Shown here: positions 43,194 to 45,409 of the stretch, piece after piece
Layout: each line of letters starts with the position of its first letter
How positions within the stretch are numbered: position 1 is the stretch's first letter
NCBI GenBank assembly: GCA_902617825.1
Contig: CACMYE010000001.1
Coordinates: forward strand, 1 to 64,000
Reading direction: 5' to 3'
DNA length: 64,000 bases
From: an uncultured Pelagibacteraceae bacterium
GTDB lineage: Bacteria > Pseudomonadota > Alphaproteobacteria > Pelagibacterales > Pelagibacteraceae
Position numbers and translations under genes: made by a program
Notes under the pieces: model-generated
The model's input: the letters and a program-made list of their open reading frames with translations, nothing else
What the model was told of the DNA's origin: nothing
Databases searched by the model: none

Positions 43194-43270
43194 TGGTAGC
43201 GGGAAGTGGGATCGAACCACTGACCTCAGGCTTATGAGTCCTGCGCTCTAACCAACTGAGCTACCCCGCC
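43194..43270 (-). tRNA. tRNA-Met (CAU anticodon), 3' CCA encoded
   Basis: GGCGGGGTAGCTCAGTTGGTTAGAGCGCAGGACTCATAAGCCTGAGGTCAGTGGTTCGATCCCACTTCCCGCTACCA folds as a cloverleaf. Confidence 0.93.
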
Positions 43271-43271
43271 A
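43222..43271 (-). repeat. 50-bp direct repeat, copy 1 (inside tRNA-Met; candidate attachment site)
   Basis: gacctcaggcttatgagtcctgcgctctaaccaactgagctaccccgcca, identical to 45093-45142. Confidence 0.95.
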
Positions 43272-43326
43272 AGTAATTCTCGTTGATTTATAATAGTTTT
43301 ATTTTTTTGTGCAATCAAGTATTTGT

Positions 43327-43363
43327 CTTGTTTTCCTTCTTACTGTGTCAGGAGTGTGTCAGG
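43327..43363 (+). repeat. Degenerate terminal repeat, left copy
   Basis: cttgttttccttcttactgtgtcaggagtgtgtcagg matches 45007-45043 at 26/37 positions by hand alignment. Confidence 0.4.
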
Positions 43364-43406
43364 TATTTATGTATTTTTAGTGTGTCAGGTATTTATGTAT
43401 TTTTAG
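43355..43406 (+). repeat. Two perfect tandem copies of a 26-bp unit plus partial third
   Basis: tgtgtcaggtatttatgtatttttag x2 then tgtgtaagg. Confidence 0.95.
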
Positions 43407-43438
43407 TGTGTAAGGATTTATAGTAACGTTTAGAGATT

Positions 43439-44278
43439 ATGAAAAAACTTTTAGGGATCGTGGTTCTTGGTTTGCTGTTGAGTGGAAACTCTAACGCTTG
43501 TGAAAAAGAGGATTTCATAAAATATGTATCAGCAGGTAAAAACAAATGTATAGCAATTTTAAATTTAGGAAAGATTGAAAAGGGTAAAAAAAACCTAATA
43601 GTATTTCTTCATGGTGATGGTAGTCCTAATTCTCCAAGACCAGGAATACCCAAAAAAAGTCAAATTAGATTTGCAAAAGAATTAATAAACGATAATAACA
43701 ATGTTCTTCTTTTTGCAAGACCTGGTTACTTTATTAGAGAAAGAGGTAGTAGTGAAGAGGATAGATATTCATCAGGACCTCGTAACGCTATAAAGAGTAC
43801 AGTAGTAAATTATGATTGGAAAAATTTTCAAATACTAGCACCTGCATTACAAAATCTTAAAAAATATTATAAACCAAAAAAACTAATTTTAATTGGACAT
43901 TCTGGAGGAGCTTATCAGGGAGGTACTATTCATGGAAAAGTACCAGGATTAGTTGATATAAATATTTTGATCTCTTGCCCGTGTGACTGGGAAATTAGAA
44001 AAAAACTAAGCAACGGTAAAAAATGGGAAACCAAATCTCAATTGAAAGAATTAAAAAAAAACTCACCAAGTTTCAATTATAAAGATATAGATTTAAAATC
44101 TCTCAATATATTAATTGTTGGAAAAGATGATAAAAATACAGCTCCAGGAGTTTCAAAATATTATTATGATTTACTTAAAAAGAAAAAACTACAAGTTAAG
44201 TTGCATATTATTGATGGAGGCCACGGATTAAGGTCTATGCCAACAATTGGATCTATAATTAAAGAATATATAAACTAA
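43439..44278 (+). CDS. Secreted alpha/beta-hydrolase-like protein with islet-type signal leader
   Basis: MKKLLGIVVLGLLLSGNSNA signal peptide; IVFLHGDGS and LILIGHSGGAYQG nucleophile elbow; GGHG. Confidence 0.7.
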   Translation: MKKLLGIVVLGLLLSGNSNACEKEDFIKYVSAGKNKCIAILNLGKIEKGKKNLIVFLHGDGSPNSPRPGIPKKSQIRFAKELINDNNNVLLFARPGYFIRERGSSEEDRYSSGPRNAIKSTVVNYDWKNFQILAPALQNLKKYYKPKKLILIGHSGGAYQGGTIHGKVPGLVDINILISCPCDWEIRKKLSNGKKWETKSQLKELKKNSPSFNYKDIDLKSLNILIVGKDDKNTAPGVSKYYYDLLKKKKLQVKLHIIDGGHGLRSMPTIGSIIKEYIN

Positions 44279-44859
44279 TGAAAAAATTTTTAGGGATCGT
44301 GGTTCTGGGTTTGTTGTGGATTATTCCAGTATCAGCTGATGAAAGATTTATTCCATTAGAATTATTTACTGGTGGAGAAATAAGGAATGATAAAGAAATT
44401 AAATATACACTAGCAGATAAAATTTTTGGTGAGAAGCGAAGAAAAAAAATTATAGGACCTGAGGATTGGAAAAACCCACAAACTGGAGAAACTATAAAAG
44501 TTTATAAAAGAACAAGAAAAGGTCAAAGTGGATTAAAAACACAGTTATTTACTGTTACTAATGATGGGCAGTGTATAGGAAGAGTTTGGGATAGTAGACG
44601 AGGAGGAAAAGTAATAAAAAATGGATGTAAATTTCCTCTAGGAGTTTGGAAAGAAGGTGAGACTAGATCGTTTGAAGGTTCTTCTGGCGGCAAGCCAAGA
44701 AAAATAGAATTAACAATTTTAAAATTAGGAAAAAAGCAGAAAGACAAGGTAAAATTTAATTGGAAACTTTATGATGGCAGTGGAAAATTAATGGATGACA
44801 ATGATTATACTTTTTCCCCTGGAAGAGCTATGACTAAGCTAAATGATAAAAGATTATAA
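44278..44859 (+). CDS. Secreted protein of unknown function with the same leader
   Basis: MKKFLGIVVLGLLWIIPVSADE signal peptide; no recognised mature domain. Confidence 0.65.
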   Translation: MKKFLGIVVLGLLWIIPVSADERFIPLELFTGGEIRNDKEIKYTLADKIFGEKRRKKIIGPEDWKNPQTGETIKVYKRTRKGQSGLKTQLFTVTNDGQCIGRVWDSRRGGKVIKNGCKFPLGVWKEGETRSFEGSSGGKPRKIELTILKLGKKQKDKVKFNWKLYDGSGKLMDDNDYTFSPGRAMTKLNDKRL

Positions 44860-44940
44860 CAACCAAAACGTTAGTATTATAGTCTAACTATAAGTACCTA
44901 ATTTCAAATCTGTTAAGGTGCCCTAAACGTTAATTTTAAA

Positions 44941-45039
44941 ATAAAAAAACTTTTAGGCATCTTGGTTCTGGGTTTGTTAAAAGATATTCTGTTTCCCCTT
45001 GTCACCTTTTTATTCCTCCTAGTTGTGCCAAGAGTGTGA
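44941..45039 (+). pseudogene. Remnant third copy of the signal-peptide leader with ATA in place of ATG
   Basis: ataaaaaaacttttaggcatcttggttctgggtttgtta reads (I)KKLLGILVLGLL then stops after about 32 codons. Confidence 0.6.
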
Positions 45040-45043
45040 CAAG
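45007..45043 (+). repeat. Degenerate terminal repeat, right copy
   Basis: tttttattcctcctagttgtgccaagagtgtgacaag, partner of 43327-43363. Confidence 0.4.
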
Positions 45044-45092
45044 AAAAGATAAGATGTGAATTAACGTATAAAGAACATGGATAATGACTCAA

Positions 45093-45142
45093 GACCTCAG
45101 GCTTATGAGTCCTGCGCTCTAACCAACTGAGCTACCCCGCCA
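45093..45142 (-). repeat. 50-bp direct repeat, copy 2: truncated 5' part of tRNA-Met
   Basis: Exact copy of 43222-43271; lacks T-arm and 3' acceptor strand. Confidence 0.95.
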
Positions 45143-45208
45143 TAATATGACAAGTCTTATAATATAAATTTTTATTGTTTCAATATACTATTAACCAAGA
45201 TTTATGGT

Positions 45209-45409
45209 CTAAATAATTAAATAAAAGGCAATCGAACATATTAAACCAACCAACAGAATTGAAAATATTAAATTTTTTTTAAAAGTTTTTTCTTTATCCA
45301 ATCTAACTCTGTTAAGCAAAATATTAACGTCGGTTGTTTTAATATGATTATTCGATAAATTTTCAGCTAAATTTTTGTTCGTGCTTAAATTTTTATAATT
45401 ACTTGACAT
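45209..45409 (-). CDS. Small single-TM hypothetical protein
   Basis: 66 aa; C-terminal TM LIFSILLVGLICSIAFYLII; resembles 55369-55566. Confidence 0.5.
   Translation of the reverse strand: MSSNYKNLSTNKNLAENLSNNHIKTTDVNILLNRVRLDKEKTFKKNLIFSILLVGLICSIAFYLII

Follow-up and report, generated by a model that had tools for sequence, protein, structure and literature searches.

The tRNA-Met locus

The window, a 64,000-nucleotide stretch of DNA from an uncultured Pelagibacteraceae bacterium, contains a single tRNA gene, an elongator tRNA-Met(CAT) for which ARAGORN made one call. The segment 43222–43271, consisting of tRNA positions 1–49 and one base ahead of the gene, recurs over 50 bp with 100% identity at the far boundary of an islet of about 1.82 kb (Table 1). 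In the 1.13 Mb assembly of the window's own genome, strong matches to this repeat are confined to the copies at 43222 and 45093, the next best being a 28-base piece. The same detector found 24 partial copies for 106 tRNA genes in 100 SAR11 loci, against 0 when the tRNA sequence was reversed, and the repeat is therefore not due to chance. An earlier note had described a 50-bp identity bracketing two secreted-protein genes and repeats, with the 5' side of the tRNA duplicated and the 5' end of the intact gene facing the islet. This description is exact; both ORFs carry a signal peptide. The absence of a recombinase, also claimed there, was borne out by the two ORFs, by Pfam, and by a search of the genome for Phage_integrase, which gave no match within the islet.

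Table 1. Features of the tRNA-Met islet, with positions in the window
Feature	Position	Strand	Basis
Intact elongator tRNA-Met(CAT)	43194..43270	-	ARAGORN; empty sites in 8 relatives
Islet, about 1.82 kb	43271..45092	.	Missing from 8 empty-site relatives
Promoter-like site for tRNA-Met, islet-borne, TTGATT-17-TATTAT, weak alone	43290..43318	-	Comparison with shuffles, p about 0.12
Left arm-type repeat pair, TGTGTCAGG-AG-TGTGTCAGG, 11-bp period	43344..43363	+	0/200 shuffles as good
More copies of left arm-type repeat	43381-43389, 43407-43415	+	Repeat scan
ORF1, 279 aa, signal peptide, alpha/beta hydrolase (Peptidase_S9 domain)	43439..44278	+	Pfam PF00326, 1e-6
Leader repeat copy 1, signal peptide MKKLLGIVVLGLLL	43439..43481	+	43-nt repeat family D1
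ORF2, 193 aa, signal peptide, no known family	44278..44859	+	89% identical DNA, alongside ORF1, in L217
Leader repeat copy 2, overlaps ORF1 stop	44278..44320	+	43-nt repeat
Leader repeat copy 3, degenerate, starts conserved right end	44941..44983	+	Same arrangement in L215
Conserved right end	44941..45092	.	82.6% identity with L215; homology of the final 69 bp to L160, an element with an integrase
Right arm-type repeat pair, TGTGCCAAG-AG-TGTGACAAG, 11-bp period	45024..45043	+	p=0.005
Partial tRNA-Met copy, far boundary of islet (attachment-site copy)	45093..45142	-	50-bp identity of 100%; empty sites align with the right flank
Original host region upstream of tRNA-Met, promoter-like TTGAAA-16-TATAAG, cut off from intact gene	45143..45211	-	Aligns with empty sites

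Empty sites and the upstream region

For comparison of the junction, 80 apt loci were fetched from SAR11 genomes. Eight of these (L010–L015, L040 and L073) have an empty site, in which apt, the tRNA-Met gene, a 66-aa ORF and DMGDH are uninterrupted. When the flanks of the window are joined at 43271|45143, they align with all eight relatives through the tRNA and its upstream region; this junction had been foretold by the earlier note and was set as a test beforehand. The islet, which has no integrase, is inserted precisely within the 5' half of tRNA-Met. Since the joined flanks match the empty sites, the host upstream region now lies on the partial copy and islet DNA lies ahead of the intact tRNA. 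Judged from these alignments, the 3' part of the present gene is evidently that of the host and its 5' part (positions 1 to about 40–49) is supplied by the islet, the partial copy being the left-over 5' part of the original host gene. The full and partial copies carry the same tRNA variant in nearly all islets, therefore such variants do not narrow the place of the crossover.

It had also been proposed that the insertion replaced the 5' half of the tRNA and presumably its promoter side. This agrees with the arrangement seen, with the host upstream region stranded beside the partial copy and the new upstream region coming from the islet. Promoter statistics alone are weak in AT-rich DNA. The insertion probably gives tRNA-Met a new, islet-borne promoter. 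With every replacement of the 5' half, the promoter of an essential tRNA may thus be changed too.

Islets at tRNA genes across SAR11

Partial copies of tRNA-Met are present in 30 of the 202 Pelagibacter-genus genomes that have this tRNA; the 5' part is copied in 17 and the 3' part in 13. One of the 5' copies (G412) is on another contig and was left out as an islet. The 5' polarity, which the earlier note had called unusual, is thus no rarity in SAR11, and is found at tRNA-Leu also. Islets of the 5' type are 0.9–4.4 kb long and those of the 3' type 0.8–5.2 kb, and at this tRNA-Met the two types are alike in the kind of ends and cargo they have. Copies of the 5' part extend at least to tRNA position 40–63 (one decayed copy only to 25), and the 3' copies start at position 24–33 (one decayed copy at 46). 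From these start and end positions, the two kinds of copy overlap in the anticodon loop and stem. Integrases of the anticodon-loop group cross over in the anticodon arm. The islet architecture recurs at tRNA-Thr, tRNA-Leu and tRNA-Gly. Taken with the cargo comparisons below, the window islet is evidently one of many blocks without an integrase whose cargo is exchanged among genomes and among tRNA sites.

Islet ends

The tRNA-Met islet in genome G607 (L215) has a left end 96.7% and a right end 82.6% identical to those of the window, with apt at 81.8%. Its cargo differs, with a 478-aa hydrolase within the same ends. The window islet has AGTAATTCTCGTTGATTT at its left end, where there is also a 26-nt tandem repeat (43353–43404), and its right end finishes in GGATAATGACTCAAG. 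The right arm-type pair reads GTGTGTCAGGAGTGTGTCAAG in L215.

Paired direct repeats with an 11-bp period are present inside both ends of most 5'-type islets. When dinucleotide shuffles serve as the background, p≤0.03 for 24 of the 30 islet ends. A period of 11 fits better than 9, 10 or 12–14 at most ends with paired repeats. No such pairs were found at L048 or L124, and L125 and L126 each have one end where they do not reach significance. These repeats resemble the arm-type sites of lambda-like integrases, by analogy with which they may be binding sites. One subclass of 5'-type islets has the repeats CAGTGGACCAC-CAGTGGACCA, which are also found between cargo genes in arrays. The TGGACCA motif was not found in the viral contigs. 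Nearly all of the 3'-type islets (L165–L176) end in CTAGAA directly before the tRNA 3' end, and their end repeats include TGACGCATGAGAGACGCA and TTGGAGCACCAGTGGAGCA.

Cargo genes and the signal-peptide leader

DNA 97.9–98.6% identical to ORF1 is present at loci L216–L219 of four other genomes, namely G489, G486, G613 and G543, whose core DNA is 79–86% identical to that of the window's genome. Both ORF1 and ORF2 are found in G489 (L217) at a second tRNA-Met gene with a 3'-type copy, and ORF1 is found in G486 (L218) at tRNA-Leu(TAA) with a 5'-type copy; no tRNA was found in the 16-kb pieces from G613 and G543. On these identities, ORF1 has evidently moved recently between different tRNA sites. 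A phage origin of the cargo was considered and rejected, neither ORF having a match in 50,697 phage records.

Cargo across the islets includes hydrolases, a permease, a restriction-type helicase and others, together with secreted trypsin-like peptidases, a frequent kind of cargo that makes up 4 of 53 islet proteins (alignment A1) in a scan that gave their number and not the exact members. The 3'-type tRNA-Met islet at L021 10160–11684 carries a DMSP-demethylase-like gene that scores 388.7 bits, below the family cut-off of 410. A defence function for the cargo was rejected, the PADLOC matches being mostly to the shared trypsin domain.

The cargo genes share a near-identical leader, a 43-nt repeat encoding the signal peptide MKKLLGIVVLGLLL, that recurs at gene boundaries. 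Eight copies are present in 60.3 kb of islets against 0 in 1.18 Mb of apt neighbourhoods, an enrichment based on the unbiased count of islets fetched by tRNA only. Among 71 distinct copies of the leader, 43 start at the stop of a preceding ORF or beside it, and 23 of the 50 copies examined lie between a tRNA and its partial copy. The leader keeps the rare codons GGG, ATC and GTG, in a sample biased by having been gathered mostly through DNA similarity. The position of the leader suggests that cargo genes are exchanged at leader boundaries. The SAR11 leader is also present in a contig classed as viral (IMGVR_UViG_3300025425_002733; L227, 286–2273), before a 557-aa protein with no Pfam match.

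Cassette arrays were seen by tRNA-Met, as in G093 (L112, 2201–4794) and in L113 and L115, with genes each following TTATCAGTGGACCACCAGTGGACCAATATCTATTTTTT. A 648-bp unit of these arrays occurs in G093, G165 and G231 in different contexts, and a 55-aa gene (MKIIIQSIKNYFKSKKDRGLEPVFFEKIGDQKTSRD...) has varying places in the arrays of L017, L083, L084, L112, L114 and L118.

Integrase-bearing elements

An integrase is encoded inside only three 5'-type islets (G512/L160, G547/L163 and G581/L164) and one of the 3' type (G063). L160, which lies at the 5' site of tRNA-Met and is 4.4 kb long, encodes an integrase (PF00589; phrog_1, 4e-40) together with a protein of 529 aa that has a match to phage primase (3e-10). 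The repeats at its ends (TTGAGTCCTATGTGAGTCC and TTGTGCCCTATGTGTGCCC) recur at the ends of L066, an islet with no integrase, and the right ends of L160 and the window islet are homologous (z=7.8 against shuffles). A putative helper element with related attachment ends therefore exists. The proposal of the earlier note that the islet is cargo-only and mobilised in trans gains indirect support from these integrase elements at the same 5' site and from the homology of the L160 right end.

Integrases of the L160 type are rare, being found in 8 of 200 genomes. None was found in the window's own genome, which is 75% complete and has a single Phage_integrase match. Viral contigs as the source of a helper were rejected, as the L160 integrase and primase have no match there. 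Among viral contigs only L111, part of a contig of 18 kb, contained the tRNA-Met core. It has the complete tRNA-Met as well as GTACGTACC repeats; these are like the repeats of the G124 prophage, and L111 was judged to belong to a different integration system.

At the tRNA-Met of G124, the 5' side has an integrase-less islet and the 3' side a phage-like region (L154, 1–4889) that encodes an integrase of 425 aa. Besides its integrase, the 3'-type tRNA-Met island of G063 (L127, 9012–12209) encodes a protein of 503 aa (phrog_4756), and its attachment end is present again as a second copy in inverted orientation. In G468 (L226, 65–8494), 8.3 kb separate the full tRNA-Gly(GCC) gene from a 5'-type copy of it, and an integrase lies beside that copy. 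An integrase gene directly behind the tmRNA of G225 (L156, 7103–8462) marks another SAR11 integrative element.

Interpretation

The comparisons show that ends are conserved around different cargo, that cargo sits at other tRNAs, and that elements of like design with an integrase also occupy this site. The reading we favour, with a probability of roughly 0.7, is that the islet is a non-autonomous integrative element, a hitchhiker, that is mobilised in trans and replaces the 5' half of the tRNA. A lambda-type tyrosine integrase encoded elsewhere would recombine the attachment site of the element with the anticodon-loop region of tRNA-Met. This attachment site would consist of the 5' part of the tRNA and an upstream region, flanked by the paired 11-bp-period arm sites. 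The 5' half from the element would then be swapped in for that of the host, leaving the tRNA whole but driven from islet DNA, and the host 5' part and promoter would be left as the 50-bp stub at the far end. The cargo would be interchangeable secreted-protein genes bounded by copies of one signal-peptide leader. In a circle, the predicted order at the junction is right end, tRNA 1–49, left end. We infer the action of the integrase in trans, the helper, excision, the place of the crossover, promoter function and present mobility. Weighing against this reading are the scarcity of L160-type integrases, with none in the window's own genome and a single Phage_integrase match there, the islet ends that have no significant repeat pairs, and the weakness of the promoter-like site.

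A tentative extension, which we hold to be possible and well short of even odds, is that SAR11 has an integron-like platform built without integron parts. Small islets at several tRNA genes would capture genes behind the mobile leader, and a gene captured behind a signal peptide would therefore be secreted at once. Rare, satellite-like helpers with an integrase and a primase would move the islets. The leader DNA would itself serve as the junction between cassettes, and its exchange would be by recombination that is site-specific or relies on short homology.

It is unlikely that the islet is a dead remnant, in which an integrase-bearing element integrated once, lost its integrase and became fixed, any later spread being due to ordinary homologous recombination in the flanking DNA. 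Some relatives that have an integrase do share a homologous right end, and partial degeneration relative to L215 is seen in the leader copy at 44941 and in the right arm repeats. However, cargo-only islets are far more numerous than integrase elements and keep both ends, the same ends hold other cargo in L215, and ORF1 appears to have moved recently between tRNA sites. Less probable still is an insertion of the RecA type, by a single homologous crossover of circular or transformed cargo DNA carrying a piece of tRNA-Met, with no integrase. Direct-repeat tRNA identity of 40–60 bp is the trace expected of such a crossover and the leader repeats would give further homology, but the copies end near the anticodon region in both polarities, conserved paired repeats are kept at both ends in many lineages, and sister elements at the same site have integrases. 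A local duplication or assembly artefact, which a single-genome observation taken alone might suggest, is refuted by the empty sites, the 24 against 0 of the reversed control, and the same structure in independent genomes (L215 and about 30 others).

SAR11 bacteria have streamlined genomes and rank with the most abundant known, and their gene trade is little understood. No integron attC sites turned up at SAR11 hypervariable regions in an early survey (PMC2217521). Common islets of 1–4 kb with exchangeable cargo, such as secreted hydrolases, trypsin-like proteases, a DMSP-demethylase-like gene and a restriction-type helicase, would be a concrete vehicle for this trade.

Comparison with known systems

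In classical tRNA islands the 3' end of the tRNA is duplicated and restored; here it is the 5' part that is duplicated, while 3'-type islets occur in other genomes. Phages with tRNA-dependent lysogeny replace the disrupted tRNA gene with a whole phage tRNA gene (PMC10865867). They share with the islet integration inside a tRNA gene and rescue of tRNA function by the element, but the islet makes a hybrid gene from its own 5' half and the host 3' half. CALIN, which are integrase-less arrays of integron cassettes, likewise have repeats between exchangeable genes; IntI, which they lack by definition, is absent from the islet, as is any integrase. The islet differs in its tRNA anchor and in its boundary repeat, which is a signal-peptide coding sequence or a TGGACCA pair and apparently not a known attC.

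Tycheposons, known from Prochlorococcus, have been reported in Methylophilaceae, as elements of 4–200 kb with a tyrosine recombinase (PMC10872708). The islet resembles them in its streamlined marine host, tRNA-Met anchor with a partial tRNA copy, variable cargo, and a tyrosine recombinase in relatives, but has no such recombinase itself and is only 1.82 kb. In an additive flexible island of Methylopumilus at tRNA-Lys, 20-bp copies of ACCAGCTGAGCTAATCCCCC recur (PMC10872708, Fig. 4F). On the other strand we read this sequence as the probable 5' end of a tRNA, as in the islet, although both host and tRNA are different.

Cis-mobilizable elements (CIMEs) and other hitchers, which hitchhike and have no recombinase of their own (hitchers are reviewed in PMC11389934), share with the islet flanking copies of the attachment site (here the 50-bp copy, with empty sites in relatives), a lack of recombinase, a content of cargo only and a presumed helper in trans. 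The islet is distinguished from them by an ICE origin that is at most putative, a size of 1–4 kb, restoration of the tRNA 5' half, leader-bounded cargo units and the occurrence of both tRNA polarities.
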